Assembly (NCBI GenBank): GCA_902601475.1
Contig: CACKNK010000004.1
Location: forward strand, 1 to 64,000
Direction of reading: 5' to 3'
Length of the DNA stretch: 64,000 nt
Origin: an uncultured SAR86 cluster bacterium
Lineage (GTDB): Bacteria; Pseudomonadota; Gammaproteobacteria; Magnimaribacterales; D2472
The position numbers were made by a program, and so were the translations under genes. The notes beneath the pieces were generated by a model. The model was not told the DNA's origin, did no database searches, and saw nothing but the letters and a program-made list of their open reading frames with translations. Below, one piece after another: positions 672 through 54,763 of the stretch; the stretch's first letter is position 1; each line of letters begins with the position of its first letter.

Positions 672-732
672 ATAAATAAACTTACAAGTTTTATCGATTT
701 GATGTATAAAGTATCCAATATTTTTATAATTG

Positions 733-1428
733 ATGGCTACAAAAATTTTAATCGTTGAAGACGAGCCAGATATCAGAAAAACCTTGCAATATAATCTTGC
801 AAAAGAATCATATGATGTTGTCACTGCCGGCTCCATCAGTGAAGCCAAATCATTAACGAATCAAAATCAACCTAACTTAATTATCCTAGATTTGATGTTG
901 CCTGATGGATCAGGTCTTGACTTTTGTAGGGAAATTAAATCCACGGAAGATACCAAAAATATTCCTGTCATAATTTTGACAGCAAAGACAGATGAAGTAG
1001 ACAGGGTGGTTGGATTTGAGCTCGGTGCGGATGATTATGTCACCAAGCCCTTTAGCGTTAGAGAGTTAGTTTTAAGAGTAAAGGCTATCTTAAAAAGAGG
1101 CGCTGTCGAAAACCCATCTGATGATAGTTCATCGCATAATTTTGGTGGTTTAGAGTTAAACCTTGAGGCCCATCAAGTATTTATTGATTCAAAAGAAGTT
1201 ATTTTAACTGCTTTAGAATTCAGATTGCTCAAACATCTGCTTGATAGGAGAGGTAGAGTCCAAACCAGAGATCAGCTTCTTGGAGATGTTTGGGGTTATA
1301 GTTCTGAAGTTACTACCAGAACAGTAGATACGCATATCAAAAGGCTTCGAGAAAAATTAGGCCCTGTGGGAGACTATATTCAAACCATAAGAGGGGTTGG
1401 CTATCGTTTTTCTAGAAATCCAGATTAA
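733..1428 (+). CDS. phoB: Phosphate regulon response regulator PhoB
   Basis: This 231-residue OmpR/PhoB-family regulator has a receiver domain (about 1-120) with acidic pair E9-D10, phosphoacceptor D53 in LDLMLP and the TKPF lysine. A winged-helix DNA-binding domain follows (about 135-228, ending TIRGVGYRF). A TTG lies directly before the ATG at 733; I use the ATG because the PhoB-type start MATKILIVEDE follows it. The gene for the matching sensor kinase starts 5 bases after the stop. PhoB activates phosphate-starvation genes through Pho boxes; two box-like sites occur in this window. OmpR paralogues look alike, but the phoR partner and phosphate-related neighbours support PhoB. Confidence 0.9.
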   Translation: MATKILIVEDEPDIRKTLQYNLAKESYDVVTAGSISEAKSLTNQNQPNLIILDLMLPDGSGLDFCREIKSTEDTKNIPVIILTAKTDEVDRVVGFELGADDYVTKPFSVRELVLRVKAILKRGAVENPSDDSSSHNFGGLELNLEAHQVFIDSKEVILTALEFRLLKHLLDRRGRVQTRDQLLGDVWGYSSEVTTRTVDTHIKRLREKLGPVGDYIQTIRGVGYRFSRNPD

Positions 1429-1433
1429 TAACA

Positions 1434-3188
1434 ATGAGCATAAGAGGAAGGATATTTTTTATTGTAATGTCCTGTTTATCGCTGGGACTAATATTTGCTT
1501 TTATTGTTGCTGAGAGAGATTTAGGAGCCAGTTTACAAGATCAAATTCAGATTGAGCTGCAAAAACAAGGGCAAATCATTCAATCATCTCTGGGCCCTTT
1601 ATCCCAATACAACGATCTGAACTCTCTTAAAGATGAAACTGATGTTTTTGCAGAGGCATCACGCTCTAGAGTTACATTAATTGACTCATATGGTGTTGTT
1701 ATAAGTGATTCGAATATTGATGTTGATGATCTGGATTTGATTGACAATCATTCCAACAGGCCTGAGATTATCGATGCTCAGAATAATGGAATGGGCTGGA
1801 GTAGGAGGTTTAGCGATACTGTTCAACAGGAAATGCTTTACTTCGCAATCTTAGATGCATCTGCGGGTCAACAGGGTGTTATAAGGTTAGCCGTTCCATA
1901 TAACTATTTTGATCAAGCATTTAGATCCCTGAATACATCAGTTATTTTGATTTTAGTGGTAGCTTTAATTGCTTCTATAATGGCAGGCATCATTGCAGGA
2001 AATTATACGCGTGAAAATTTTTTAGAACTTGAGCGTGCCGTTACTAGATTGGAATCAGGAGACTTAAAAAAGAAGACCATAAAATCGCTGCCAACAAAAC
2101 GAGTTGATGAAATTGGCTCAGTTGCTCGAAGTCTTTCTTCAATATCTGTTGATTTAAAAAATCAACTGACCCTGCTTGCTAAACAAAGAAATCAATTTGG
2201 CTCTGTGCTGAATGATCTTGGAGAAGGTATTGTTGTTTTTGATGAACTTGGAATAGTTAACTTTAATAATGATGAAGCATTAAATATTCTTGAAGTCAGC
2301 GATCTTCTTAACAAAAATATTGATGATTTAAATCTTCAACCGCTTAAGTTGATGTTTGATCAGGCAAAAAAAAAGGGTAAATACGCAATGGAGTTTGAGA
2401 TTGAAAGCAAGCTTGGTAATAAATGGATACTTGCCCAGATGAATGCAGCAAAAGGCACGAAAGAGTTTATTTTAGTGCTGCATGATGAAACTCAATTGAG
2501 GGATATGGACTCGATGAGAAGAGATTTTGTTGCAAATTTATCTCATGAGCTTAGAACGCCAGTAAGCGTTATCAGAGCTAACTCTGAAACTTTGCTGGAT
2601 GGTGCTTTAGATCATCCAAAGGATGCAAACAGGTTTACACGAGCAATCTTACATAATTCTGAGAGACTAACGGAAATGGTCTCAAATTTGATCGACTTGT
2701 CTCGAATCGAATACGGAGATAAGCAGTTTAATTTAGAGGATATTGATCTAAAAAATAAAATCCATCGAGTGATGGAAGCCATGACTAGCTTGGCTGCAGA
2801 AAAAGATATTAAATTTATATTTGACTATGCAGGTGAAGCAATTGTTAAAGCCGACCATGGAGCTTTAGAACAAGTTCTAAATAACTTATTAGAAAATTCA
2901 ATCAAGTATAGCTCTAAAAATTCTAAAATAAATATCAAGCTCAGAAAGCAAGACGACTTCTATAGAGTATCCATTCTCGATTCCGGATCAGGTTTAACGC
3001 CTGAGGAATCAACCTTAGTCTTCAATAGATTTTATAGAACTGCAAAAGCTAGAGCAGAATCCAAACAAGGTAGCGGTCTTGGACTAGCCATTGTTAAACA
3101 TCTTGTAAATCAACTAGGCGGTGAGGTCGGTGTAATGCCTAGAAAAAATGGCGGATCAAGATTTTGGTTCACTCTTAAGAGCAAATAG
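1434..3188 (+). CDS. phoR: Phosphate regulon sensor histidine kinase PhoR
   Basis: This 584-residue membrane kinase has TM1 (about 6-26), an extracytoplasmic segment of about 140 residues, TM2 (about 169-191), HAMP (about 192-245), a PAS-like region (about 255-350), HisKA with H371 in SHELRTP, and HATPase_c with N-box NNLLENSIKYS, DSGSGL and GSGLGLAIVK. The large outer domain differs from E. coli PhoR, which has almost none; it is closer to the layout in Bacillus and many marine bacteria. The gene follows phoB by 5 bases, so co-transcription is very likely. PhoR phosphorylates PhoB under phosphate limitation. Naming rests on order and architecture. Confidence 0.87.
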   Translation: MSIRGRIFFIVMSCLSLGLIFAFIVAERDLGASLQDQIQIELQKQGQIIQSSLGPLSQYNDLNSLKDETDVFAEASRSRVTLIDSYGVVISDSNIDVDDLDLIDNHSNRPEIIDAQNNGMGWSRRFSDTVQQEMLYFAILDASAGQQGVIRLAVPYNYFDQAFRSLNTSVILILVVALIASIMAGIIAGNYTRENFLELERAVTRLESGDLKKKTIKSLPTKRVDEIGSVARSLSSISVDLKNQLTLLAKQRNQFGSVLNDLGEGIVVFDELGIVNFNNDEALNILEVSDLLNKNIDDLNLQPLKLMFDQAKKKGKYAMEFEIESKLGNKWILAQMNAAKGTKEFILVLHDETQLRDMDSMRRDFVANLSHELRTPVSVIRANSETLLDGALDHPKDANRFTRAILHNSERLTEMVSNLIDLSRIEYGDKQFNLEDIDLKNKIHRVMEAMTSLAAEKDIKFIFDYAGEAIVKADHGALEQVLNNLLENSIKYSSKNSKINIKLRKQDDFYRVSILDSGSGLTPEESTLVFNRFYRTAKARAESKQGSGLGLAIVKHLVNQLGGEVGVMPRKNGGSRFWFTLKSK

Positions 3189-3200
3189 TTTTTTACAGGG

Positions 3201-3228
3201 CTGTCACAAACTTTTTTCTTTTGTTCAC
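3201..3228 (+). promoter_or_regulatory. Pho-box-like site upstream of the lipoprotein/TonB receptor pair
   Basis: CTGTCAC at 3201-3207 matches six of seven bases of the E. coli Pho half-site CTGTCAT. A related TTCAC lies at 3224-3228, 21 bases (two helical turns) after the GTCAC of the first. The middle repeat expected at 3212 is degenerate. The site lies in the only spacer between phoR and the lipoprotein gene. The same GTCAC/TTCAC spacing occurs before the second TonB receptor at 51581-51606. No convincing -10 stands at the matching distance here, so the call is tentative. Confidence 0.4.
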
Positions 3229-6162: not shown

Positions 6163-6188
6163 TTAAGGGTACAAAATAGGAGTTACCA

Positions 6189-8789
6189 ATGAATACATTT
6201 AGAAGTAAAAAGGTTGGCTATAAAACTCTCTTACCCTTGTTGCTACTTACTACCTCAATCTCAGCACAAGAGATTGAGGAAGTAGTGGTGAGCGGTTCTT
6301 TCATTCCAGATGAAAAGAGGGATACCACTGAGATTAATGTTGTTCTTGACAGTTCTGAAATTGAGAGAACTGGAGATGATAATATTGCCGTAGCACTTAC
6401 CAGGCTTACAGGTCTTAGCTTGGTAAGAGGCAAGTATGTTTATGTGAGAGGTTTAGGTGAGCGTTACTCTGCTGCCACATTAAATGGTGGCGTATTGCCT
6501 AGCCCCGAACCTCTTAAAAGAGTTGTTCCTCTCGATTTGTTTCCTACTGAAGCAATTGAGTCAGCAATTGTTCAAAAGACATATTCAGCTGATATGAATG
6601 GAGAATTCGGTGGTGGCATGATTGCAATAGAAACTAAAGCCGTACCTCTTGATAGAACCCTCTCGGTTTCTTTTTCGTCTGGTTATAACTCAGTTACTTC
6701 ATTAACAGGAGGTCTTCTCTATGACGGTGGTGGTGATGATGATTGGGGTTATGACGACGGTACGAGGGACTATCCTGACTCAGTAGGTCGGGCCATTGCA
6801 AGTGGCACTAAAATTGATAGGTCAAATTTCGAACCCTATCAGCTTGCTAATATTGCTAGAGAATTTGAAAATTCAAAATTATGGGTCATCCAAGACGGTG
6901 ATGTTCCTGTTGATAATTCTTTTAACGTGACCTTCGGTGATCAACTTGATTGGGATCTAGGAAATGGATTAACTTCTGGTTTCCTTCTTACCGCTGGAGT
7001 AAGATCATCGTGGCAAACTCAGGATGGTCTGAGGCAAACCGGTGACCTTCAAGCAAATAGTGATGGCACAGCTTCAGTTATTAAAGCTGAAGATAAAACA
7101 TTTATTTCTACTTCAAATGATGTCACAACTTACGGCATGGGTGTTTTTGGAGTTGAATCAGATACAGCCGAAGCAAAATGGACATCTCTGTATATTCATA
7201 AAGGAACTAAAGAAGCGAGATCAATTACTGGTTTTGATCCAAGTGATGCAGCAAATATTCGAGAGGATTATATTGAATTCTTTGATAGAACCTTAATTAA
7301 TAATCAACTTAGCTTTGATAAAATATTTGAAAACGATATGGTTTTGGATGGAAGAGTTTCTTTTGGATCAGCAAGTAGAGACGCACCATATGAAAGATCT
7401 GTTTTTTATGAAGATAGTGATAATGATGGCATTTACCTTTATGACGTTAATACCGGTAGGAATCAGACCCAATTCAGTAGCGTTGATGACGATGTTTTTA
7501 ACGTTGGATTGGATCTTACAATTCCCATTGAAACTGATTCTACCGACTTAATTTTTAAAGTTGGTATTGATCATAAAGTAAATGACAGAGAGGCTGAGGT
7601 AAGGAGCTTTAGATTTCTTGCCGCGGGAGGACCTTTACCAGATGAGCTTCTTAGCAAAAGAGTTGATTATATTTTTGCAGATCAAAACCTGGATCCAAAT
7701 AGATTGTATGTAATTGAAAATACAGGTTCTTCATCTCCAGCAGGATATGAGGGAGAGCTTGAAACAACAGCTTATTATGCTTCTTTAGAGGCCTTAGTAT
7801 CTAATGAATTCAAAGTTTCCGCAGGAATCAGAAGTGAAGATGGATCACAAGAAATTAATACGTATGATCTATTTACAGGTAAAGACAATACCATTGATAA
7901 GACTATCGATGAGGACTATGCGTTACCCAGCTTAACTCTGACATATCTTCCTGAAGACTATGAAAATCTTCAAGTTAGGCTTGGATTTTCTCAAACGATT
8001 GCAAGACCTACTTTCAGAGAATTATCCCCAACACTTTTTGTTGATGTTGATACTGATAGAGTTATCGCAGGATCTTTATACCTTCAAAATTCTGAGATAG
8101 ATAATATTGATCTACGAGCTGAATATTATTTTGGCCAGAACCAATTTATTACGCTTGGTGCTTTTTATAAAGAGATTCAAAATCCCATTGAAGAATCTGT
8201 TTCTGAAATTGGAGATCTTGTTATTACTTCATATCAAAACGTTCCTCTCGCTGAAATAAATGGCTTTGAATTTGAATATGAAAGAGTTTTTGATGGTTTT
8301 GAATCGGCTTGGCTATCCAGTAAAGAAGTTTTAGTTAAATTTAACTATACTTTTACAGATTCTGAAATTGTAGTAGGGGATGGCGATACATATGTAAACC
8401 TTGTCGGTGCAACCGTTTCTGCTTCATCCTTATTGGCGAACGGAAGAGATCCTAGGTTACAAGGTCAAGCAGACAATATCGTCAATTTTCAGCTAGGTTT
8501 TAATGATTATCTTGCTAACTCTCAGGCTACGTTCATTTTGAATTATGTGGATGATAGAGTTAGGGCTAGAGGTATTGATGTTCTTCCAGACATAATCGAG
8601 GAAGTTCCTACAACACTTGACTTCGTATATTCTAGGATATTTGATGTTGAAGATAATACTTTGAAACTTTCAGTCGAAATTAGAAATATTCTCGATGAGT
8701 CTTATGAGGCAACCATGGCAGATAACATTTTCTATGATCAGTATGATTTAGGGACATCTATATCTATCGGGTTAAAATATAATTTCTAA
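6189..8789 (+). CDS. TonB-dependent outer membrane receptor
   Basis: This 866-residue receptor has a Sec signal peptide (about 1-26, ending SISA), a TonB-box-like IEEVVVSGS, a plug domain (about 40-150, with VYVRGLGERYSAATLNG and GEFGGGMIAIETK) and a long beta-barrel ending in the outer-membrane signature GLKYNF. AGGAG at 6178-6182 gives a well-placed ribosome site for the ATG. It follows the lipoprotein gene and is closed by the terminator at 8810. The family imports iron chelates, B12, glycans and other large solutes. The substrate cannot be read from sequence; the phoBR context suggests an organophosphate or similar ligand (inference). Confidence 0.88.
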   Translation: MNTFRSKKVGYKTLLPLLLLTTSISAQEIEEVVVSGSFIPDEKRDTTEINVVLDSSEIERTGDDNIAVALTRLTGLSLVRGKYVYVRGLGERYSAATLNGGVLPSPEPLKRVVPLDLFPTEAIESAIVQKTYSADMNGEFGGGMIAIETKAVPLDRTLSVSFSSGYNSVTSLTGGLLYDGGGDDDWGYDDGTRDYPDSVGRAIASGTKIDRSNFEPYQLANIAREFENSKLWVIQDGDVPVDNSFNVTFGDQLDWDLGNGLTSGFLLTAGVRSSWQTQDGLRQTGDLQANSDGTASVIKAEDKTFISTSNDVTTYGMGVFGVESDTAEAKWTSLYIHKGTKEARSITGFDPSDAANIREDYIEFFDRTLINNQLSFDKIFENDMVLDGRVSFGSASRDAPYERSVFYEDSDNDGIYLYDVNTGRNQTQFSSVDDDVFNVGLDLTIPIETDSTDLIFKVGIDHKVNDREAEVRSFRFLAAGGPLPDELLSKRVDYIFADQNLDPNRLYVIENTGSSSPAGYEGELETTAYYASLEALVSNEFKVSAGIRSEDGSQEINTYDLFTGKDNTIDKTIDEDYALPSLTLTYLPEDYENLQVRLGFSQTIARPTFRELSPTLFVDVDTDRVIAGSLYLQNSEIDNIDLRAEYYFGQNQFITLGAFYKEIQNPIEESVSEIGDLVITSYQNVPLAEINGFEFEYERVFDGFESAWLSSKEVLVKFNYTFTDSEIVVGDGDTYVNLVGATVSASSLLANGRDPRLQGQADNIVNFQLGFNDYLANSQATFILNYVDDRVRARGIDVLPDIIEEVPTTLDFVYSRIFDVEDNTLKLSVEIRNILDESYEATMADNIFYDQYDLGTSISIGLKYNF

Positions 8790-18163: not shown

Positions 18164-19021
18164 TTAGTTTTTGATTTGAAATTTATTGCTATAAAGCTCG
18201 TGATAGAGTTTTACAGCAATTGAGTCCGATACGCCCCATTTTGTAGATCTTATATTTTTTACATTTATTCTGTTAAGAACGAATTCATAAATACTCATTG
18301 CGTAATCAATTACATCGGCTCTATCTTCAGAAAGATCATGCTTTGAGATCTTCTCGCTAAAGGTAAGTTTATTTAACTTATCCTTCAGTTTAATAAATTC
18401 TTTTTTTGTAATTTTATCTTGGTTATGTATTTTTAAAAATGATCTTATGTTACCTCCAATCCCAACTACTGTATTAAAGGATGGTAACTTATTTAACCAG
18501 ACATTCAGCTTTTTCCACTCATCCGGTCTATCTTTTCTAAGCATATTTCTTACGGCACCAAGTTGAAAAGATTTAATTTTCTTTTTGCCATCAAGATAAT
18601 AAAAAAACTCAAGACTACCGCCACCTAAGTCAGCATAAAGTTTAGGATCATTTTTTTTAATTTTAGGATTTAGTGCCATTAAGGAAGCTTCCTCAAGCCC
18701 AGAAATTACCCTAATCGGGTGTTCAATTTCATTTTCTACTAATCTTCTTGCGTCTTCTGAATTTTTAGTATCCCTAAATGCTGAAGTTGCTACAATTTCA
18801 TAAAACTCTATTTCATTCCTATTAAAATAGTCTTGATACTTTTTTAGTGAGCTAACTAGTTTTTCAATACTTGCTTTTGAAAGCAGACCATCCACAAAAA
18901 CATCCGTACCCAATCTTGCTGGCGTTCTAATAGATTCATTAAATGAGATTAAATTTGATGAGGTATCAAATATTTTTGATTTAACAGCATTAGTTCCAAT
19001 GTCTATAGCAGCTATTTTCAT
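18164..19021 (-). CDS. ppx: Exopolyphosphatase / pppGpp phosphohydrolase family (Ppx/GppA), short form
   Basis: This 285-residue protein has the ASKHA-fold motifs of Ppx/GppA: AAIDIGTNAVKSKIFD at the N-terminus, FYEIVATSAFRDTKN, VISGLEEASLMAL and YADLGGGSLEFFYY. It would release phosphate from polyphosphate chain ends or from pppGpp. It stops after the phosphatase core and lacks the C-terminal HD-like domain of the roughly 500-residue enterobacterial enzymes; such short forms are common. It lies 3 bases downstream of ppk2 on the same strand, so polyphosphate is the more likely substrate. Residual ambiguity between Ppx and GppA remains. Confidence 0.85.
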   Translation of the reverse strand: MKIAAIDIGTNAVKSKIFDTSSNLISFNESIRTPARLGTDVFVDGLLSKASIEKLVSSLKKYQDYFNRNEIEFYEIVATSAFRDTKNSEDARRLVENEIEHPIRVISGLEEASLMALNPKIKKNDPKLYADLGGGSLEFFYYLDGKKKIKSFQLGAVRNMLRKDRPDEWKKLNVWLNKLPSFNTVVGIGGNIRSFLKIHNQDKITKKEFIKLKDKLNKLTFSEKISKHDLSEDRADVIDYAMSIYEFVLNRINVKNIRSTKWGVSDSIAVKLYHELYSNKFQIKN

Positions 19022-19024
19022 TCT

Positions 19025-19861
19025 TTAAATATCATCAGTATATTTAGTTAGAATCATATATTGATCATAATTAAGATTATCGAATTCAACTCCCTCTAAT
19101 GAAACTTTGTAATTATTAATATTTTTACTCCACGCAAGAGGCTTTAATAGTTTTTTATTCTCATAATTTGCTTGGTTTAGTAAAAATCTTAATGCACTAA
19201 GTCTTGCGATCATTTTATTATTTGCATTTATTACTACCCATGGGGAAAAATTAACTGCAGTCTTATCAAACATTTGCTCTTTGTATAGCGTGAAAGCGTC
19301 CCACTTTGTAACAATCCTTTCATCATTAGGGGAGAGCTTCCAATATTTAAGTTCAGATTCTTTTCTAGCTTTCATTCTTCTTTTTTGTTGGTCTTGTGAA
19401 AGAGAAAAATAAAACTTAATAATTTCAACACCTGAGTAAATAAGTTCTTCCTCCCAGTTCGTTACTTTTTCCATAAAGTCTCTGTATTGCTCTTCGGTAC
19501 AATACCCCATTACAGGTTCAGTTATAGCTCGGGTGTACCAGCTTCGATCAAGGAAATTAATCTCACCTTCTCTTGGAATCGTTTTCTCCCATCTCTTGAA
19601 CCAATTATTTGATTCCCATTTGGTAGGAATTCCTAGTTGGACATAATTAAAATTCTTTGGAATAAGATGCTGTGCAAAAAACTTAATTGTCGAACTCTTG
19701 CCCGCTGTATCTCTTCCCTCAAAAACAATACATATTCTTCTTTTATTTCTAATAACATCTTCTTGGAGTTTAAGAAGCTCAATTTGCAAACGTCTTTTTT
19801 CTAGCGCATAGGCTTTATCATTTAGTTTTGCGTATTCTCTTTGGTCAAGATTTAAAAGCAT
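19025..19861 (-). CDS. ppk2: Polyphosphate kinase 2 (PPK2 family, single domain)
   Basis: This 278-residue kinase has P-loop FEGRDTAGKSSTIKFF (about 48-63), the PPK2 signature PREGEINFLDRSWYTRA with the Walker B Asp, and a lid region rich in Arg/Lys (QDQQKRRMKARKES). Size and motifs fit a single-domain class I PPK2. The family moves phosphate between polyphosphate and nucleotides, usually favouring nucleotide synthesis from polyphosphate. It forms a two-gene unit with ppx and diverges from the phosphate permease gene 88 bases away. No PPK1 is seen in the window. Confidence 0.93.
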   Translation of the reverse strand: MLLNLDQREYAKLNDKAYALEKRRLQIELLKLQEDVIRNKRRICIVFEGRDTAGKSSTIKFFAQHLIPKNFNYVQLGIPTKWESNNWFKRWEKTIPREGEINFLDRSWYTRAITEPVMGYCTEEQYRDFMEKVTNWEEELIYSGVEIIKFYFSLSQDQQKRRMKARKESELKYWKLSPNDERIVTKWDAFTLYKEQMFDKTAVNFSPWVVINANNKMIARLSALRFLLNQANYENKKLLKPLAWSKNINNYKVSLEGVEFDNLNYDQYMILTKYTDDI

Positions 19862-19949
19862 TTTTGTATTATATAACCTAATTTTTAGCTAAACTTTAAC
19901 CATAAATAATTTCACTTAATTGTAATATTAGCCAGTTAAAATAACTGAT

Positions 19950-21203
19950 ATGGAAGCTCTATTCTTTTCTCCATTCATCATCTTAATAATAGCTTGTGTA
20001 TTAGGTTTTTTTGCAGCATGGGGAATTGGAGCCAATGATGTTGCAAATGCAATGGGTACCTCAGTAGGTAGTAAGGCTCTGACTCTAAAGCAAGCTGTAA
20101 TTATCGCCGCAATATTTGAATTTCTTGGTGCTTTTCTTGCTGGTGGTGAGGTTACATCAACAATAAGAAAGGGCATCGTAGATCCATTACTGTATCAAGA
20201 TGATGTCAATATATTCATTGTCGGAATGATGGCTACTCTCTTAGCTACTGGCAGCTGGCTGATGCTTGCAAGTAGAAATGGTTGGCCTGTATCTACAACC
20301 CATTCAATAGTTGGGGCCATCGTTGGTTTTGTCTTAATTACAAAAGGCTCTGGTGCAGTTTCTTGGGACAAGATATTTGAAATTGCTTCAAGCTGGATTA
20401 CTTCACCATTAATTTCTGCTTTATTGGCATTCTTAATTTTTAAATCAGTAAAAATACTAATCATTGAAAGCAATAACAGATCAAAAGCTGCAGTTAATTT
20501 AATACCTATATATGTGATATTGGTTGTTTTCGTAATTTTGCAGGTAACGTTTAGAAAGGGCTTAGTTCATATTGGGCTTGTTTGGGAAAATAGTGAAATT
20601 ATCCAATATTCGCTCATTTTAAGTTTGGTTATTGGGATTGTTAGTTTCTTATACTTAAGATCTAAGTCATTCGATTTTGGAAGTAAAGCAGGCATTGAAA
20701 CAGCTTTTTCTTTGCTGATGGTAGTAGCGGCATGTGCTATGGCTTTTGCTCATGGATCAAATGATGTTGCCAATGCGATCGGTCCATTGGCTGCAATAGC
20801 CTCCATTGCTTCATCGGGCGGTGTTATCGAATCAAATGCTACTGTTTCACCTTTAATTTTGCTTCTAGGTGGGGTAGGAATTGTTACCGGATTAGCTATG
20901 TATGGCCATAAAGTCATAAAAACAGTTGGAGAGAAAATAACAAAACTCACCCCTTCATTTGGATTTAGTGCAAATATAGCCACAGCCTCGACAGTAGTCT
21001 TTGCATCCTATTTAGGATTTCCTATATCAACAACTCATACTCTGATAGGAGGTGTAATTGGAGTTGGTCTCGCAAATAGCATTAAGGAAATAGACTGGAG
21101 ATCCGTTATTAATATTTTTATGTCCTGGCTTATTACAATCCCTGTTGGAGCAATTTTTACGATTCTATTTTACGTCATTTTGAGAGTGCTCTTCGGTGTC
21201 TGA
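19950..21203 (+). CDS. pit: Inorganic phosphate transporter, PiT family
   Basis: This 417-residue polytopic permease carries the two PiT signatures, one per inverted half: GIGANDVANAMGTSVGSKAL near residue 25 and AHGSNDVANAIGPLAAI near 268. STTHSIVGAIVG and STTHTLIGGVIG add a matching pair. About ten membrane segments are seen. PiT proteins carry phosphate (and arsenate) with protons or sodium. It diverges from ppk2-ppx. It is shorter than E. coli PitA (about 500), mainly in the central loop. No high-affinity PstSCAB is in the window. Confidence 0.93.
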   Translation: MEALFFSPFIILIIACVLGFFAAWGIGANDVANAMGTSVGSKALTLKQAVIIAAIFEFLGAFLAGGEVTSTIRKGIVDPLLYQDDVNIFIVGMMATLLATGSWLMLASRNGWPVSTTHSIVGAIVGFVLITKGSGAVSWDKIFEIASSWITSPLISALLAFLIFKSVKILIIESNNRSKAAVNLIPIYVILVVFVILQVTFRKGLVHIGLVWENSEIIQYSLILSLVIGIVSFLYLRSKSFDFGSKAGIETAFSLLMVVAACAMAFAHGSNDVANAIGPLAAIASIASSGGVIESNATVSPLILLLGGVGIVTGLAMYGHKVIKTVGEKITKLTPSFGFSANIATASTVVFASYLGFPISTTHTLIGGVIGVGLANSIKEIDWRSVINIFMSWLITIPVGAIFTILFYVILRVLFGV

Positions 21204-21675
21204 TTTAGAAAAAAGAATTGCAAGCCTTGAAGCAATCAATAGCATTGAAAACTTAAAGCATACATATTTGAATGCATGCGACGCAAAGGATGTGCAAGCC
21301 ATGATGTTAACGTTTAAAGAGGGCTCATGTCATATCGATTATGGCGAAGTTGGTTTATTCAATAACAGAGAGGATTTAGCAAAATTATTTGAAAATATAG
21401 CTTGTCATGATCATATGGTTGAATCACATCATGCTCATAATCCAATAATTGATTTAATTGATAATCGAAATGCAAAAGGGGTCTGGCAAATTACATATAA
21501 TTTAATAAACACAAACGACCATATCATGAATACTCTGCATGGAACTTATGAGGATGAATACATTAATGAAAATAATCATTGGGTTATTTCAAAAACAATA
21601 TTCAAGGCTAAATCAACTCTTCAAACTGAAATTAAAGATCAGCTAATTAAAGTCATTTTTTCAGGCAAGCCATAA
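21196..21675 (+). CDS. SnoaL-like / NTF2-fold protein
   Basis: This 159-residue protein starts at a GTG inside the end of pit (8-base overlap). It has a short coiled-coil N-terminus (LEKRIASLEAINSIENLK) followed by an NTF2/SnoaL-type cone fold: YLNACDAKDVQAMMLTFKE, a His-rich middle (HDHMVESHHAHNP) and HWVISKTIFKAKS. Family members include dehydratases, isomerases and non-catalytic binders. The function is unknown. A relative with the same kind of N-terminus lies at 33485. The overlap suggests it is co-translated with the phosphate permease. Confidence 0.7.
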   Translation: MSDLEKRIASLEAINSIENLKHTYLNACDAKDVQAMMLTFKEGSCHIDYGEVGLFNNREDLAKLFENIACHDHMVESHHAHNPIIDLIDNRNAKGVWQITYNLINTNDHIMNTLHGTYEDEYINENNHWVISKTIFKAKSTLQTEIKDQLIKVIFSGKP

Positions 21676-21688
21676 AAGATTAGCTAAA

Positions 21689-22327
21689 TCAGTTAACACC
21701 CTTAAAAAGCTTCAAGATTAAAAACGCTATTAGGCCACCAAATAGCTGCGCTATTACAAATGGAAGTACATAGTCAGGACTTATTCCAGCAAAAGAATCT
21801 GAAAAGGCCCTTGATATGGATGCAGCTGGATTTGCAAAGGACGTTGAGGAGGTAAACCAGTAAGCTCCACCAATGAATGCAGCAACTGACATAGCAACAT
21901 TCTCTTTTTTAGAGAGATAAATAATCATTACTAAACCTATGGTGGCAAACACTTCGCTAACATAAATATTTATACCACCTCTTTGATTGGTAGCGAAATC
22001 AATTAACTCTAATCCAAACATATAGTTTGCAAAAATAACACCAAGAATTGCCCCTGCACACTGCAAAATTCCATAGGAAATCAATTCAGAAATTGTTATT
22101 TCTTTTTTTAAATACGCAACCATTGAAACAGCTGGATTAAAATGTGCATTACCATATTCTTGAAAAGTGGATATCAAGAAATAAAGTGCAAATGATGTAG
22201 CTATAGTATTTGCCAACAAGACCACACCCTCATTATCTGGTGACAAATTAAAACCCATAATGCCTGAGCCCACCACTGCACAAAACAGAACACCTGTTCC
22301 AAGAAACTCAACTAAATACTTTTGCAT
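21689..22327 (-). CDS. MIP-family channel (aquaglyceroporin, AqpS-like arsenite channel)
   Basis: This 212-residue membrane channel has six predicted TM segments and the two half-helix signatures NAHFNPAVS (about 60) and SSTSFANPAAS (about 162), both with intact NPA. The gene starts 4 bases after arsC and they clearly form an operon. In Sinorhizobium meliloti an aquaglyceroporin (AqpS) paired with ArsC lets arsenite leave down its gradient. By analogy this protein would be the arsenite exit, since no ArsB or Acr3 pump is present. Water or glycerol transport is the alternative. Confidence 0.85.
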   Translation of the reverse strand: MQKYLVEFLGTGVLFCAVVGSGIMGFNLSPDNEGVVLLANTIATSFALYFLISTFQEYGNAHFNPAVSMVAYLKKEITISELISYGILQCAGAILGVIFANYMFGLELIDFATNQRGGINIYVSEVFATIGLVMIIYLSKKENVAMSVAAFIGGAYWFTSSTSFANPAASISRAFSDSFAGISPDYVLPFVIAQLFGGLIAFLILKLFKGVN

Positions 22328-22331
22328 CTAA

Positions 22332-22706
22332 CTAATCCAGTCCCTTTATTTGTTCATGAATTAAATCTCTTACCTCATTAAATTCTTGCATCTTAAGATC
22401 TTTTGGATCAGGAATATTCCACTCTAAATTTTTAGCACCATCAACTATAGGGCATGCATCTCCACACCCCATTCCAATAATGTAATCAAATCTATATCCA
22501 AAAAAATTTGAAATTGCTTGTGGATGTCCACTATGAATTATTCCCAATTCTTCAAGCGATTTTATAGCCTTTGGATTAACTTGGTTGGATGGTGCAGACC
22601 CAGCAGACCATGCCTGAAATTTTTTTGAATAAAGTGTGTTTGTAATTGCCTCTGCAATTTGACTTCTGCATGAATTTTCGACGCAAACAAATAGGATCTT
22701 TTTCAT
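22332..22706 (-). CDS. arsC: Arsenate reductase, thioredoxin-coupled (low-molecular-weight phosphatase fold)
   Basis: This 124-residue protein has the P-loop CX5R motif as C8-VENS-C13-R14-S (FVCVENSCRSQIAEA), the conserved DP near the end (NIPDPKD), and two further cysteines at C81 and C85 in GMGCGDACP. These allow the relay seen in thioredoxin-linked ArsC, which reduces arsenate to arsenite. The second Cys pair is closer together than in the S. aureus pI258 enzyme. No arsR repressor is adjacent; a TetR gene lies 81 bases upstream. A plain LMW tyrosine phosphatase is less likely given the extra cysteines and the channel partner. Confidence 0.88.
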   Translation of the reverse strand: MKKILFVCVENSCRSQIAEAITNTLYSKKFQAWSAGSAPSNQVNPKAIKSLEELGIIHSGHPQAISNFFGYRFDYIIGMGCGDACPIVDGAKNLEWNIPDPKDLKMQEFNEVRDLIHEQIKGLD

Positions 22707-22787
22707 TATTCAGATTTTAAAGATAATTCCAAAAAAAGCTTACTAATTTTAAATCTTTAGTTTTTTAAAGGATATAAGCATGAGAGA

Positions 22788-23372
22788 TTACTTTGTTGTA
22801 CAACTAAGCAGGTACGCATAAGAGGCTCTTAATGCCTCATTTGTTCCAATTTCATTGAGTTCGTTGTTTTCCTTTAGGTTGAGGGACAACACAGAAATAA
22901 TAATCTGGGTAATTACTAAAAAAACTCCCTCTTTGTTAAACATGTTTGGAAGTTTATTAGCAGCTTCTATTTTATTGACTATTAGATTGGAAAGGGCTTG
23001 CATTTTAGTACTGTCGATAGGAGGGTTAACCGTGTTTGCCAGTATAATTTTTTGGGCCGATGTATTTTCTTTAAAATATAAATATATCTCGTTAATGAGC
23101 TCTTTAAGAGTTTGGTAATGCTCTGAAGAGCTTATATTATAATTTTCTAATTTTTCTCTGAGCTCATCTATATATCTTTCGATTAGAGCAATTTTTATAT
23201 CATCTGGATGAGGAAAAAATTTATATGTGGATGTTCTCTTGAGATCAGCCACTTTGGTTAAATTAGCGATTGAAAGATCATTAATTTCTCCATCCATCAA
23301 CACATTATGAGCAGTTTCTAGAATTTTATTGACCCTGTTTAAGCTTCTTTGCTGTTTATAAATAATTGACAC
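22788..23372 (-). CDS. TetR/AcrR-family transcriptional regulator
   Basis: This 194-residue protein has an N-terminal helix-turn-helix (about 15-60) with the family pattern ILETAHNVLMDGEINDLSIANLT and RTSTYKFFPHPDDIKIALIE, then an all-helical ligand domain. The start is GTG; no in-frame ATG precedes the HTH. It lies upstream of arsC on the same strand and 58 bases from the divergent phytase gene, so it could control either. The ligand is unknown. Confidence 0.85.
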   Translation of the reverse strand: MSIIYKQQRSLNRVNKILETAHNVLMDGEINDLSIANLTKVADLKRTSTYKFFPHPDDIKIALIERYIDELREKLENYNISSSEHYQTLKELINEIYLYFKENTSAQKIILANTVNPPIDSTKMQALSNLIVNKIEAANKLPNMFNKEGVFLVITQIIISVLSLNLKENNELNEIGTNEALRASYAYLLSCTTK

Positions 23373-23430
23373 AATTTAATTATCGACAAATGTTTAAAAA
23401 ATATCAAATCTATTATTTTTTTATCAAAAT

Positions 23431-24549
23431 ATGATTAATAATGAACCTCTGATGAAATTAGATTCACCTATGACAACTTACAAAAACTCAAAAAAAATAG
23501 CTATTTCTTTATTAGCTATTTTTTTAAGTTTTTCAGTCCACAGTGATGTACCGTTTATTATTTTTCCAATTATAGAGACTGAACCAGTGATTTCACCAGA
23601 AGATGCAGCTGACGATCCAGCTATATGGATCAATAATGCGGACCCAAAAAAATCTCTTATCTTTGGAACCGATAAGAAATCAGGTATCTATGTATACGAT
23701 TTGAAGGGCAATCAACTCAGTTACTCTAATCTTGGAAAGATTAATAATATTGATTTGCGCTCCGTTGAGGGTAAGTTACATATCGTTACATCTAACAGGA
23801 CCATGAGCACTTTAGATTATTGGATTTTTGATGAACAAGACCTTTATAAGTACTTTAAATCAACACCATCTAATTCATTTTCTGAATCAATGTCACATCA
23901 TCACTTAGTAACGGGTATGAGTGTTTACGGTGTTTGCATGGGCCTTATCGACAATGGTTTAAAAGCAGTTATAACGGAAGAAGAGGGCAAACAAGTCCAG
24001 CAGTGGGATCTTAATGAGCAAATTAAAACCCATGTGATTGACATCACTCAGTTTGAAAAAGGTAAACCAGTTGAGGGAAATGAAGCTGAAGGCTGTGTTT
24101 ATGATGATGAAAATGAAACTATTTTCATTTCTAGAGAAGGAGACAAAGGCATTTTAAAAGCTTTCTCAGTGGATGGTTTTAAATATCTTCAGGATGTTGA
24201 TTCTCGAGCAGGTGAGATAGAAGGTGATCCTGAAGGGGTCTCGATCTACAAAACATCTAATAAAGAAGGCTACCTTGTTGTATCTTCCCAAGGTAATTCA
24301 ACTTTTAATCTCTACAACAGAAAAACCCCTTATCAATATGTTGGTACATTTATGATTTTAGGCGCACAAGGCATTGATGAAGTCAGAGATACCGATGGTA
24401 TTGATGTGACCTCAACTCCATTACCAGGATATCCTAAAGGAATGATGGTTGCTCAGGACGGATTCAATACCAATCAAAGAGGAAAGCTCTTCAATCAAAA
24501 CTTTAAATATATTTCGTTTAAAGATGTTCTAGATCAGATTGAGCCTTAA
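23431..24549 (+). CDS. Secreted 3-phytase, beta-propeller type
   Basis: This 372-residue enzyme (up to 13 fewer if an internal ATG is used) has a signal peptide: KNSKK then IAISLLAIFLSFSVHS. The mature part shows beta-propeller phytase motifs: AADDPAIWINN, GTDKKSGIYVYDLKG, NEAEGCVYDDENETIFISRE, DPEGVSIY and DTDGIDVTSTPLPG. The repeated acidic motifs match calcium- and phosphate-binding residues of this fold. It hydrolyses phytate to lower inositol phosphates and phosphate. ATGs at 23452 and 23470 are possible starts; 23470 gives the most standard leader. It lies at the edge of the phosphate island and could be exported by the T2SS. Confidence 0.9.
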   Translation: MINNEPLMKLDSPMTTYKNSKKIAISLLAIFLSFSVHSDVPFIIFPIIETEPVISPEDAADDPAIWINNADPKKSLIFGTDKKSGIYVYDLKGNQLSYSNLGKINNIDLRSVEGKLHIVTSNRTMSTLDYWIFDEQDLYKYFKSTPSNSFSESMSHHHLVTGMSVYGVCMGLIDNGLKAVITEEEGKQVQQWDLNEQIKTHVIDITQFEKGKPVEGNEAEGCVYDDENETIFISREGDKGILKAFSVDGFKYLQDVDSRAGEIEGDPEGVSIYKTSNKEGYLVVSSQGNSTFNLYNRKTPYQYVGTFMILGAQGIDEVRDTDGIDVTSTPLPGYPKGMMVAQDGFNTNQRGKLFNQNFKYISFKDVLDQIEP

Positions 24550-49964: not shown

Positions 49965-50319
49965 TTATTTATTAATTGCGTTGGGAGGTGCTTTAGGGTC
50001 TTTATTAAGATACTTAGTGGGTATTCGGATACAACCCTCTGAATCATTCTTTCCCGTTAATATCTTATTAATAAATATATTAGGATGTTTTTTAATTGGC
50101 ATGGTTTTGGCATTGGTTGATGCTAAATCACAACTCTTCCTTTTTCTTACAATTGGGATATTGGGTTCTTTTACGACTATGTCAGCTTTTTCAGCTCAAG
50201 CATTGGATTTATTGTTAGATGAAAAGTACTTACTTGCGACTTCATATGTATTTTTAACTTTACTTTCATGTATCATTTCGACTGTTATTGCATATTATTT
50301 ATTTAAAGCGTTAGCATGA
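49957..50319 (+). CDS. crcB: Fluoride ion channel CrcB/Fluc
   Basis: This 120-residue four-TM protein has GGALGSLLRYLVG, FPVNILLINILGCFLIGM and GILGSFTTMSAFSAQ, the Fluc signatures including the conserved Asn and the central GxxTTxS motif. Fluc dimers export fluoride. It overlaps lolA by 8 bases and serS by 4 bases. No fluoride riboswitch could fit in the overlaps, so expression is tied to the operon. Confidence 0.92.
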   Translation: MANYLLIALGGALGSLLRYLVGIRIQPSESFFPVNILLINILGCFLIGMVLALVDAKSQLFLFLTIGILGSFTTMSAFSAQALDLLLDEKYLLATSYVFLTLLSCIISTVIAYYLFKALA

Positions 50320-51563
50320 TTGATCCTAAGATTCTCAAAGAAAATATACAAAGTTGCAAAGATAATTTAGCCAAAAGAGGTTATAGCCTCGATGATGAAA
50401 AATTTTTATCACTAGAGAACCAGCGCAAAGATCTTCAAACAAGAGTTGAAGATCTACAATCCCAAAAAAATAAACTCTCAAAAAATTTTGGAGAATTAAA
50501 AAAATCTGGCCAATCAACAGACGTACTTGCTTTAGAACTTGAAGAAATTAAGTCGCAAACGACTGATCTAGAAAAAACTCTCTCAGCACTGCAAATTGAG
50601 ATCTCATTTTTTTTAATGGATATACCTAATCTGATTTCAGAGGATACCCCAACTGGAACAAGTGAAGACGACAATAAATTAATTGAAGAATATTTAAAAC
50701 CGCAAGTACTTAAATCGGATTCTCATTTAGACATTACAGATCAAATAAGCCTAGAGCTTGGAAATAAATTAAGCGGATCTCGATTTTCAGTTCTAAAAGG
50801 CAATGTGGCTAAACTTCATCGATCTCTTTGCACCTATATGATTAATCAAGCAATTAATAATGGTTATGAGGAAACTTACGTACCTTATATTGTTAATTAT
50901 GATGCCTTAGAGGGTACAGGACAGCTTCCTAAGTTTGAAGAGGATCTTTTTAAGTTATCCAATGATCAATACTTAATACCAACAGCAGAGGTCCCACTTA
51001 CGAACTTATTTCGAGATCAGATAGTTGATCAAGATCTACTTCCAATAAAGCTAACTGCGCACACGCCATGCTTTAGATCCGAAGCGGGAAGTTATGGTAA
51101 AGATACAAATGGACTTATAAGACTTCATCAATTTGATAAGGTTGAAATTGTACAAATTGTTAAACCTCAAGATTCTGACAAAGCACTTGGAGAGATAACA
51201 TCCCATGCGAAATCTGTTTTAGAGAAACTTGAGCTGCCATATAGAGTCGTCCAGCTTTGCTCTGGAGATGTAGGATTTTCAGCTAGCAAAACTTTTGATA
51301 TAGAGGTCTGGATGCCTAGTCAAGAAAAATATAGAGAGATCTCATCATGCTCTAATTTTTCAGACTTTCAAGCCAGAAGATCAAAGATTAGATTTAAAGA
51401 AAACGGAAAGAATCACTTTGTGCATACCTTAAATGGTTCAGCCTTGGCAGTTGGTAGGACTTTGATAGCTGTAATTGAAAATAATTTTAATAAAAAATTA
51501 AAGTTAATTAATATTCCAAAAGAGCTTCAAAACCTTATGGATGCTGACATTATAGAGTTGTAA
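50316..51563 (+). CDS. serS: Serine-tRNA ligase
   Basis: This 415-residue class II synthetase has an N-terminal coiled-coil arm (about 25-110), motif 1 region, motif 2 CFRSEAGSYGKDTNGLIRLHQFDKVE and motif 3 NGSALAVGRTLIAVIEN. It charges tRNA-Ser (and tRNA-Sec if present). Length is typical. The ATGA overlap with crcB sets the start. Confidence 0.97.
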   Translation: MIDPKILKENIQSCKDNLAKRGYSLDDEKFLSLENQRKDLQTRVEDLQSQKNKLSKNFGELKKSGQSTDVLALELEEIKSQTTDLEKTLSALQIEISFFLMDIPNLISEDTPTGTSEDDNKLIEEYLKPQVLKSDSHLDITDQISLELGNKLSGSRFSVLKGNVAKLHRSLCTYMINQAINNGYEETYVPYIVNYDALEGTGQLPKFEEDLFKLSNDQYLIPTAEVPLTNLFRDQIVDQDLLPIKLTAHTPCFRSEAGSYGKDTNGLIRLHQFDKVEIVQIVKPQDSDKALGEITSHAKSVLEKLELPYRVVQLCSGDVGFSASKTFDIEVWMPSQEKYREISSCSNFSDFQARRSKIRFKENGKNHFVHTLNGSALAVGRTLIAVIENNFNKKLKLINIPKELQNLMDADIIEL

Positions 51564-51578
51564 AAATTAACCTAATTT

Positions 51579-51625
51579 TTGTCACTAAAAAGTCACTTTA
51601 ATTCACTAAAAAAAAGTTCTACAAT
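51579..51625 (+). promoter_or_regulatory. Pho-box-like direct repeats with -10 element before the Oar-type receptor
   Basis: TTGTCAC (51579-51585) and AAGTCAC (51590-51596) stand exactly 11 bases apart, the period of Pho-box half-sites (7-mer plus 4-base spacer). A third, weaker TTCAC follows at 51602-51606. A -10-like TACAAT lies at 51620-51625, about 13 bases downstream, where a PhoB-activated promoter would place it, and there is no good -35. The spacing GTCAC...TTCAC (21 bases) repeats that at 3203-3228. PhoB control is inferred. Confidence 0.45.
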
Positions 51626-51658
51626 TGATATCGACACAAATTTCAAGAGGGGTCATTC

Positions 51659-54600
51659 ATGAATTATATAAAGGGATTATTTTTATCAATTCTCTTAATT
51701 TCTGTTCCAGCTTTTGCAGAGGTTGAAACTACTTCTTCCATTCGGGGTACAGTTAATGTTGCAGGTGCAGCAGTTGAGATTACTAATCAATCAACAGGTC
51801 AAACAAAGTCTGTTACTGCTGGTACCACTGGAAACTTTTCAGCTTCCTTCTTAAAAGTTGGTGGTCCTTACTCTGTAAGTGCATCAGCTCCAGGCTATGC
51901 AAGAGAATCAGTAGATGGGTTGTTCTTAGTACTTAATGAGACAACCAATATAAGTATTACTCTTGTATCAACAGCTGATGTTGAAGAGGTTGTTACTACA
52001 GCTACTAGAGCTGGTTCAATCAAGGTGGGAACAGGTACGTTACTAGATAGAACTGCTATGGATGGCGTTCCAACAATCAACAGATCGGTTGCTGACTTTG
52101 CAAAATTAGACCCAAGGGTATCTATTAATACAGGCTCATCAAGAAATGCAGAAATATCTGTAATGGGTGCAAACAATAGGTACAACGACTTCTCAATTGA
52201 CGGTGTTAGTTTTAATGACCCATTTGGTCTTAACGCTAATGGTTTCGGTTCAATGAGAAACCCAATCAGTTTAGACTTTGTTGATCAAATATCAGTAGAC
52301 GTTACTCCATTTGATGTATCTCGTGGTAACAATACTGGTGGATCAATTGCTGTGGTAACAAAATCCGGTACCAATGAGTTCAAAGGGACTTACTACACTA
52401 CTGAACGTGATGAAAGCAACATCGGTGATTACAACGGTCTTGATTTTGCAACATTCAGTGAAGAGATTACATCCGTAACACTATCGGGTCCAATCATCCA
52501 AGATAAGCTATTTTTCTTTGTTGGGTATGAGGAGCTCGAAGCTTCATCTCCTGTACTTTACGGAACAAAAGGCAGTGGAGCTCCCAATGAAGCTGAAACA
52601 GTCACAGCTGCAATTGGACAACAAATCAAAGATATTGCCATGAATACTTATGGTTATGATCCTGGTGCACTTGATAATGTATCTTTTCCTGAAACTCATG
52701 AAGAATACACTGTAAAAATTGACTATTACATCAATGATTTTCATCGTGCAGTGTTAAACGTTTCACATTCAGAGGATTACTTCCCTAGAAAATACAATCG
52801 AGGTAATACTGTGTTTAGTAACAACTACTATGCTAAACCTCCTGAAATTGATCGTGAATCAATAACAATTTTCAGTGACTGGAGTGATCGCTTAAGAACA
52901 AAAATTAAATTCACTTCATATGAAATGTATGAAGATGATTCCTCCATTGGTGATCCTTTCTTCCCTGAAGCAAGAATTCGTGTAGGTGGGGACCAAGTTT
53001 ATCTTGGTGGTGACAGATACAGAGGTGCGAACCTTATCAACACTACATCTGACTACTTCACCTTTAAACTTGACTATGACTTAGGCGACCACATTATTAC
53101 TGCTGGTGTTGAGACTGAAGAAGCTGATATTTATAACTTGTTCATTGCAAGATATAACGGTGAGATTCATTTTGATTCTATTGACGATTTTGCAAACGGT
53201 ACATGGTCTTACTTAAGATTCCACACTCCTATTAGCGGTAATGCAAATGTTTCTGATGCTGCTGCTGCTTTTGAAGTAGAAAAGACTACTATGTATCTGC
53301 AAGATAAGTGGTATGTCAACGATGACTTAACTATTATTTATGGTGTCAGGTACGATCAACGTGAAACACCAACTGAAGCCAGACTTAATCCAAACTTCTT
53401 GGCTCGAAACGGTGTTCCTAATAATGCTAAATTTGACTTTGATCTTGTTCAACCTAGATTCTCATTCAATATGAACGTAACTGATGAAGTTTCAGGGATG
53501 TTTGATGGAATGTTCGATTATGTTGTAGATGCAACACTTCGTGGCGGACACGGATTATTCATGGGAAGAATTCCTAATGTTTGGTACGGTAACCAGTATT
53601 CAAGATCTGGTGGCGCAACTGATTACAATAGATTCAGAAGTTTTTCTGATACCATTGGAACTATGCCTGCCGCTTCCGTGGCAGATCCAAGATTCTTCTG
53701 GCTTGGACCAACAAGTAATTACCAGGTAAGAGGAGCTTACTTTGGTGATGCTCAAGGTACAGACCCAGATTTTGAGGCTCCTTCTTCTTGGAGATCAAAT
53801 CTTGCCCTTGATTTAGTAACAGCCAATGGCTATGAAATTACCTTTGAATATAACCTTGATGATGTTAATGAGGGTGTCTTCTATAAAGATTTAGGTCTAG
53901 AGAGAACCGGTCAATTGGCTGATGGAAGAGGCGTCTATGACACTTCAGGTGACTACTGGCTAACTAATGCTAGTGGTGGTGGTGCTGAAGCCTTTACGTG
54001 GTCTGTAACTAAAGACTTTAATGGTTTAAAAGCATTACTTGCCTATAGTACTGTTGATGCTGAAGATATTTATCCATTAACATCAACTCAGGCTGAATCT
54101 ACATATGGTTATACTCAAAGATTTGATGGAGAGAATCTCTCACCAAGGCCTTCAAGCTTTATGATCGATGAGAAGTGGATCTTCTCACTTGATTATACTG
54201 CTAAGCTGATCGGTGAAAATGATACAAGATTCTCACTTGTATACATTTCAAAATCTGGTGAAAACTTTAGTGTTACTTATGATACAGGATACAATTCTGT
54301 TGGTGGTGCAAGTTATGGTGGATATGATCTTGCTTACATTCCAACCGGTGCAGCTGACCCAAAAGTTAACTTTGCATCTGCTGGAGTTGCTGCGTCTGTA
54401 ATGGAACACATCAACAACACTGGACTAAGAAACTACAAAGGTACTTATGCACCAAGAAATGCTTTCCAAGGTCCTGATTATAGAAGGGTAGACTTAAGGA
54501 TCACTCAAGATATCAATGTATGGAATGATCATAAATTAATTGTCTATCTTGATGTTCTTAACCTATTGAATCTATTAGATGATGATAAAGGAATAGTAGA

Positions 54601-54763
54601 AGAGTACTCTTACAATAACAGCAGACAAATACTAGTAAATGGTGTTGATGCTGAAGGAAGAGTTAATATTACAGGAGTTGATCCTGATGATAGCTTAAGC
54701 GTTGTTAACTTTAATGGCCAATCTGTATGGCAAGTTAACTTAGGCTTTAAATACTCTTTCTAA
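51659..54763 (+). CDS. Oar-type TonB-dependent receptor with carboxypeptidase-regulatory-like domain
   Basis: This 1034-residue outer-membrane protein has a signal peptide (1-20, ending PAFA), an N-terminal CarboxypepD_reg-like beta-sandwich (about 25-105, SIRGTVNVAGAAVEIT), a plug (about 115-235, with VMGANNRYNDFSIDGV and VVTKSGTNEFKG) and a long barrel ending QVNLGFKYSF. This layout matches Oar/OmpA-related receptors. The ligand is unknown; oligopeptide or polymer import is common in this group. GAGGGG lies before the ATG. It stands alone between a Pho-box-like promoter and a strong terminator. Confidence 0.88.
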   Translation: MNYIKGLFLSILLISVPAFAEVETTSSIRGTVNVAGAAVEITNQSTGQTKSVTAGTTGNFSASFLKVGGPYSVSASAPGYARESVDGLFLVLNETTNISITLVSTADVEEVVTTATRAGSIKVGTGTLLDRTAMDGVPTINRSVADFAKLDPRVSINTGSSRNAEISVMGANNRYNDFSIDGVSFNDPFGLNANGFGSMRNPISLDFVDQISVDVTPFDVSRGNNTGGSIAVVTKSGTNEFKGTYYTTERDESNIGDYNGLDFATFSEEITSVTLSGPIIQDKLFFFVGYEELEASSPVLYGTKGSGAPNEAETVTAAIGQQIKDIAMNTYGYDPGALDNVSFPETHEEYTVKIDYYINDFHRAVLNVSHSEDYFPRKYNRGNTVFSNNYYAKPPEIDRESITIFSDWSDRLRTKIKFTSYEMYEDDSSIGDPFFPEARIRVGGDQVYLGGDRYRGANLINTTSDYFTFKLDYDLGDHIITAGVETEEADIYNLFIARYNGEIHFDSIDDFANGTWSYLRFHTPISGNANVSDAAAAFEVEKTTMYLQDKWYVNDDLTIIYGVRYDQRETPTEARLNPNFLARNGVPNNAKFDFDLVQPRFSFNMNVTDEVSGMFDGMFDYVVDATLRGGHGLFMGRIPNVWYGNQYSRSGGATDYNRFRSFSDTIGTMPAASVADPRFFWLGPTSNYQVRGAYFGDAQGTDPDFEAPSSWRSNLALDLVTANGYEITFEYNLDDVNEGVFYKDLGLERTGQLADGRGVYDTSGDYWLTNASGGGAEAFTWSVTKDFNGLKALLAYSTVDAEDIYPLTSTQAESTYGYTQRFDGENLSPRPSSFMIDEKWIFSLDYTAKLIGENDTRFSLVYISKSGENFSVTYDTGYNSVGGASYGGYDLAYIPTGAADPKVNFASAGVAASVMEHINNTGLRNYKGTYAPRNAFQGPDYRRVDLRITQDINVWNDHKLIVYLDVLNLLNLLDDDKGIVEEYSYNNSRQILVNGVDAEGRVNITGVDPDDSLSVVNFNGQSVWQVNLGFKYSF

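Follow-up and report, generated by a model that had tools for sequence, protein, structure and literature searches.

The serS-receptor gap and its repeat array

The window, meaning the whole 64,000-nucleotide stretch analysed here, is contig 4 of a 1.35-Mb genome that is 81% complete, and it carries a gene for an Oar-type TonB-dependent receptor that is separated by a 95-bp gap from serS (Table 1). The receptor has the organization expected of the Oar type, namely an N-terminal CarboxypepD_reg domain, a plug and a large outer-membrane barrel; PF13620 and PF25183 score above their cut-offs, and Plug reaches 21.4 bits, slightly below its cut-off of 23.9. Among 30 orthologous loci, several of which are incomplete, a 2OG oxygenase match lies near the receptor in 28 and a NupC-type transporter match in 23. 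No sequence relative of the receptor was found among solved structures at E 0.001, so that its substrate is not inferable by that route. By its gene company, and by analogy with Caulobacter, one may guess at the uptake of nucleosides or other phosphorus-containing molecules.

Table 1. Coordinates of the genes, arrays and promoter elements discussed in the text (window positions unless a contig or locus is given).
Feature	Position	Strand	Remarks
PhoB response regulator	730..1428	+	sole Trans_reg_C protein found in the genome
PhoR-like histidine kinase	1434..3188	+	584 aa
Array behind phoR	3192..3228	+	TTTAC 3192-3196; GTCAC 3203-3207 (11 bp); TTCAC 3224-3228 (21 bp on)
Phosphate island	18164-24549		includes the PHO4 permease
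Ppx/GppA	18164-19021	-	phosphate island
PPK2	19025-19861	-	phosphate island
Pho-box-like pair	19908..19930	+	TTCAC 19911-19915, GTAAT 19922-19926; 19 bp upstream of the PHO4 permease
PHO4-family permease	19950..21203	+	probable phosphate transporter
Phytase	23431-24549	+	phosphate island
serS (seryl-tRNA synthetase)	50316..51563	+	matched beside the receptor in 28/30 orthologous loci
Site B, Pho-box-like array	51579..51607	+	GTCAC 51581-51585; GTCAC 51592-51596 (+11 bp); TTCAC 51602-51606 (+10 bp); motif kept among orthologues
Probable -10, TACAAT	51620..51625	+	23 nt past the second half-site
Probable ribosome-binding site	51645..51652	+	purine-rich AAGAGGGG, by eye
Oar-type TonB-dependent receptor	51659..54763	+	1034 aa; CarboxypepD_reg, weak Plug, OMP_b-brl_4
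Box of the PhoD-like phosphatase	L155, own genome, contig 2: 53819-53841
Boxes before a short, probably secreted protein	L165:1538-1969 (own genome, contig 11); L191, L176, L181, L187, L184, L170, L194

The gap between the two genes holds the array referred to here as site B. Under the repeat-spacing definition given in PMC4971064, a Pho box consists of two direct repeats of about 7 bp at a distance of 11 bp with an A/T-rich spacer, and the repeats at 51581 and 51592 have this form, the spacer bases between them being A/T only. The first-pass annotation had described three repeats with an 11-bp period; the two GTCAC half-sites are indeed exactly 11 bp apart, whereas the third repeat, TTCAC, follows at 10 bp. 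Its placement of TACAAT 13 bases past the third repeat was confirmed, as was the lack of a -35 element, the best hexamer agreeing at no more than 3 of 6 positions at spacings of 15-19. Position 51659, where it had proposed mapping the 5' end, is the ATG of the receptor gene; transcription would instead be expected to begin near 51632.

GTCAC-N6-GTCAC occurs a single time in the 64-kb window, and 3 of 150 dinucleotide shuffles of the window contain such a pair, as against none of 20000 shuffles of the 95-bp gap. Genome-wide, no excess of TGTCACN6GTCAC with up to two mismatches was found (91 matches vs 104 for the reversed control); the one exact match is site B. Because of this lack of excess the GTCAC pair by itself is weak evidence, and it is the place of the pair and its conservation that bear the weight of the argument.

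Spacing and geometry in orthologous promoters

The receptor was found in 49 of the 61 genomes of the order. From these, 44 orthologous promoters were taken (27 from the first loci, the 28th of that set being dropped as too short, and 17 added later), which group into 26 clusters when 75% identity is applied. Of these clusters, 8 contain T[CT]AC pairs spaced 11 bp, compared with 0.21 expected from shuffles, and when spacings from 4 to 25 are compared, 22 (twice 11) gives 2 and all others except 11 give 0 or 1; the half-site was picked after the sequences had been viewed, but the comparison between spacings is still fair. The looser half-site [GT]T[CTA]A[CT] forms 11-bp pairs in 17 of 26 clusters, vs 28 of 158 other promoters from the fetched regions, a control set that itself includes the phoBR-side promoters and site B. 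An unseeded motif search on the orthologous promoters recovered the same 11-bp direct repeat, and a motif learned without the window's genus scored 212.9, vs 121-143 in 12 shuffled sets. Over 127,942 window positions, this leave-genus-out motif ranks site B third (51575, 12.7 bits) and the promoter behind phoR fourth (3186, 12.2 bits); the two positions above them, 8502 (-) and 25193 (+), both lie within genes. Loss of the spacing among orthologues, which the first-pass annotation had named as counting against its proposal, was looked for, and the spacing is instead kept, with 11 bp dominating in the 26 clusters. This conservation has bounds: the strict pair is confined to the 8 clusters, even the loose pair is absent in 9, and no site of at least 11 bits was found in 5 (L037, L038, L051, L105 and L108). 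GTAAC and TTTAC variants of the half-site occur in many orthologues. The TACAAT of the window's promoter recurs in three promoters of the same genus, which belong to receptors with 95-97% identity.

In the 20 promoters with a site of at least 14 bits, the best -10-like hexamer lies 21-24 nt (6 promoters), 31-33 nt (9) or 41 nt (2) past the second half-site, with exceptions at 10, 15 and 26 nt, and this phasing of the -10 to one helical face was matched by 0 of 500 shuffles. The window's 23 nt belongs to the 21-24 nt group. In E. coli phoA, phoB and pstS, the distance from the last repeat to the -10, as read from the sequences, is 10 nt. The arrangement had been called the classical architecture of a PhoB-activated promoter. 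In E. coli phoA, phoB and pstS, the box replaces the -35 and the last repeat stands 10 nt from the -10. That description fails on two counts: the -10 is 13 nt from TTCAC, a repeat that is itself off by one, and 23 nt from the second GTCAC, or about 13 nt further than in E. coli. As Pho boxes elsewhere (PUMA3) also lie further upstream, this lowers the case for 'classical' and not that for 'Pho box'. Given that the window's distance falls in the first of these groups, compared with 10 nt in E. coli, site B is predicted to be a Pho box of a promoter class whose box lies one to three turns further upstream, the gap to the -10 possibly being bridged by weaker half-sites such as TTCAC. When the SAR86 motif was tried on E. 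coli as a control, the known phoB and phoA boxes came second and third in 22 kb; the control is imperfect, since a position without a known Pho role comes first and the pstS box is just fourth in its 10 kb.

Related arrays at phosphate genes and the candidate regulator

The 'phosphate island' and 'site A' of the first-pass annotation were taken to be among phoBR (730-3188) and 18164-24549. The array behind phoR precedes a run of lipoprotein, TonB receptor and type II secretion genes. Between phoBR and the type II secretion genes, 3295-8789 codes for a lipoprotein-like protein of 955 aa and for a TonB receptor; some SAR86 genomes have this pair, while in others it is lacking or has been replaced. 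Across 35 phoB-region loci of relatives, none of which contributed training sequences, 12 motif matches of at least 17 bits were found, vs 0 in reversed loci and 0, 0, 0 and 2 in four shuffles. Among the best, arrays of the TGTCACATAAATGTCACA type separate phoR from the gsp (type II secretion) operon in 6 genomes (G025, G008, G013, G011, G035 and, weaker at 13.8 bits, G020). Another of the best, TTGTCACTAAGATGTCAC in G041, stands near phoBR before a gene that by eye is porin-like, and divergent from one that by eye resembles ppk2. In family f2 the region upstream of phoB itself has, again by eye, the pair, which in one member (G049) lies exactly 10 nt from TATGAT, the E. coli distance. The phoB promoter in the window's genus, checked for autoregulation, shows no clear box. 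A separate pattern is seen in L093 and L094 (G041/G059), where at about 190-235 TGTGACA/TGTCACA repeats some 11 bp apart lie upstream of a run of aquaporin-like, phosphatase-like and pstS genes, in the opposite orientation to that run.

A profile built from 22 boxes, site B among them, returned 12 matches up to E 10 in the window's genome, the first being site B (itself in the profile), the second before a PhoD-like phosphatase and the third before the PHO4 permease; several of the 12 fall in coding sequence or beside genes for which no phosphate role is known. At E 0.1 the profile has a match in 40 of the 61 genomes. The PhoD-side site lies, by eye, directly upstream of an apparent GTG start and a twin-arginine-like leader. 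For the PHO4 permease, a sulfate-permease model outscores PitA, both far under their cut-offs, and phosphate is assigned as its substrate from the PPK2/Ppx neighbours and the box. A box also precedes the PHO4 permease in G003, and the PHO4 upstream regions of 30 relatives have a median of 7.5 bits, vs 3.6 in the 158 controls (p 3e-5); in families f2 and f4 this box is mostly absent, and the window's own site reaches just 8.1 bits with the leave-genus-out motif. Community pit transcription, mostly from SAR86 and Pseudomonadales, is reported to be lower with added phosphate (PMC12981677), which fits a box at the PHO4 permease. The motif is thus found at PhoD, at the PHO4 permease and in the phoR-gsp arrays, and the suggestion that the receptor shares a regulon with the phosphate island gains support, at the level of sequence, from the box before the permease.

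Some of the strongest arrays of the order precede a short, probably secreted protein of 137-151 aa, for which no match was found in Pfam (1 member searched) or NCBIfam (3 members); its AlphaFold model has a mean pLDDT of 80 and no more than weak matches to small metallopeptidases (best E 0.23). In family f4 the box precedes a different protein of about 98 aa.

PhoB is the one OmpR-type regulator found in the genome, although at 81% completeness another could be missing. It is identical to E. coli PhoB in 99 of 234 aligned columns, including D53, K105, T194, R201 and R219, with V197 replaced by T; in the E. coli PhoB-DNA crystal, Thr194, Arg201 and Arg219 contact bases (PMC3973317). An adjacent phoR, the phospho-acceptor Asp and the DNA-contact residues are therefore all in place, V197 excepted. 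Against the TIGR02154 equivalog the protein scores 259.9 bits, under the curated cut-off of 296.2 that is passed by none of the 61 genomes; this is still its best NCBIfam model, and the name PhoB rests on function and neighbourhood rather than on that cut-off. A PhoB-model match is present in 59 of 61 genomes, a few being the receiver domain of another regulator only. In G017 and G029 the box is accompanied by such a receiver-domain match and no full PhoB was found, perhaps owing to assembly gaps. The PhoR-like kinase is longer than that of E. coli (584 vs 431 aa); as read from its sequence, two hydrophobic segments enclose a stretch near its N-terminus. A PhoU search that was positive in 13 of 14 controls gave 0 of 61 for the genomes of the order. 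PstS-type proteins were detected in 7 of 61, 4 of the 7 above the cut-off. In a recent SAR86 comparison (PMC11582366), pit is reported to belong to the core, and the Pst system to be confined to a subset.

A model of receptor control and its relation to known systems

The computed evidence, namely the site, its conservation and kept 11-bp phase, its likeness to the phoBR-side and phosphate-gene promoters, and a lone OmpR-type regulator with mostly kept DNA-contact residues, strongly supports the earlier proposal of a PhoB site. Site B is very probably a docking site of the phosphate-starvation regulator, which would most likely place the receptor in the same programme as the phosphate-scavenging genes, and we infer with high confidence that 51579-51607 acts as a Pho box through which PhoB activates the Oar-type receptor under phosphate shortage. 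In such a model, low phosphate would lead PhoR to phosphorylate PhoB, whose protomers would occupy the two GTCAC half-sites, 11 bp apart, in a head-to-tail arrangement, with a further protomer perhaps on TTCAC. Bound PhoB may then recruit RNA polymerase to the TACAAT -10, which has no usable -35, so that the receptor would be made and would probably import a phosphorus-containing compound. A single regulon would cover the receptor together with the PHO4 permease and the PhoD-like phosphatase, and in relatives would extend to type II secretion.

Other readings of the array have to be weighed against this model. PhoB might occupy site B in another mode, as a repressor or as an activator of a promoter other than TACAAT, the repeats being about two turns upstream of that -10; the 23 nt to TACAAT, vs 10 in E. 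coli promoters, points this way. However, distances of 21-24, 31-33 and 41 nt keep to one helical face, as expected of an activator, and TACAAT is kept in close relatives, such that this reading appears improbable. Slightly less probable again is control by some other regulator of the OmpR/PhoB type, answering to osmotic, envelope or metal stress rather than phosphate and acting on 10-11-bp GTCAC/GTAAC repeats. The GTAAC and TTTAC variants in many orthologues resemble sites of other members of this family, and the genome is incomplete; yet PhoB is the lone Trans_reg_C protein found in it, its contact residues are mostly those of E. coli, and the same motif recurs behind phoR, at PhoD and at the PHO4 permease. 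That the pair is a functionless chance repeat is very unlikely: an A/T-rich promoter and a pattern without genome-wide excess would suit such an origin, but the pair arose in none of the gap shuffles, and the 11-bp phase maintained across the order already disfavours chance.

Beyond activation of the receptor by PhoB at site B, a broader scheme may be put forward tentatively, though it is rather doubtful as a whole. SAR86 would possess a complete PhoBR regulon that lacks PhoU and, for the most part, PstSCAB. PhoR itself would sense shortage via an extracytoplasmic segment some 140 residues long, and outer-membrane receptors, secretion and the PHO4 permease would form the core of the response. 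The Oar receptor, whose neighbours are a 2OG oxygenase and a NupC-type transporter, would admit nucleosides or nucleotides to supply phosphorus. The PhoB/Pho-box type of switch is well known, its use in the abundant SAR86 group less so, and a limited literature search returned no prior description of a Pho box in SAR86. With a PhoB motif that is readable across the order, its phosphorus-stress regulon, including receptors and secreted proteins of unknown role, becomes listable from existing genomes. The motif also raises the sharp question of what governs PhoR in an order where searches detected PhoU in none of 61 genomes and PstS-type proteins in 7.

The Pho boxes of E. coli phoA, phoB and pstS share with SAR86 the direct GTCA[C/T] repeats 11 bp apart with A/T-rich spacers; Thr194, Arg201 and Arg219 are kept in SAR86 PhoB, and the SAR86-derived motif recovers the E. 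coli phoB and phoA boxes. In contrast to E. coli, the SAR86 half-sites are more degenerate (TTCAC, TTTAC, GTAAC), the third repeat of site B is at 10 bp, and the -10 lies about 23, 33 or 41 nt from the second repeat instead of 10. In Caulobacter crescentus, type II secretion belongs to the PhoB regulon along with various TonB-dependent receptors (PMC11208175), and a hypothetical gene and a TonB receptor are directly upstream of gspC-N (PMC2996285), much as a lipoprotein and a TonB receptor precede the type II secretion genes at 3295-8789 of the window. Caulobacter differs in having PstSCAB and PhoU, whereas in the SAR86 order PhoU was found in 0/61 and PstS-type proteins in 7/61. The vreA, pdtA and phdA promoters of the Pseudomonas aeruginosa PUMA3 regulon need an ECF sigma factor and carry a Pho box of two 7-bp repeats (PMC4971064); as in the SAR86 promoters, the box is upstream of the -35 region rather than in its place.
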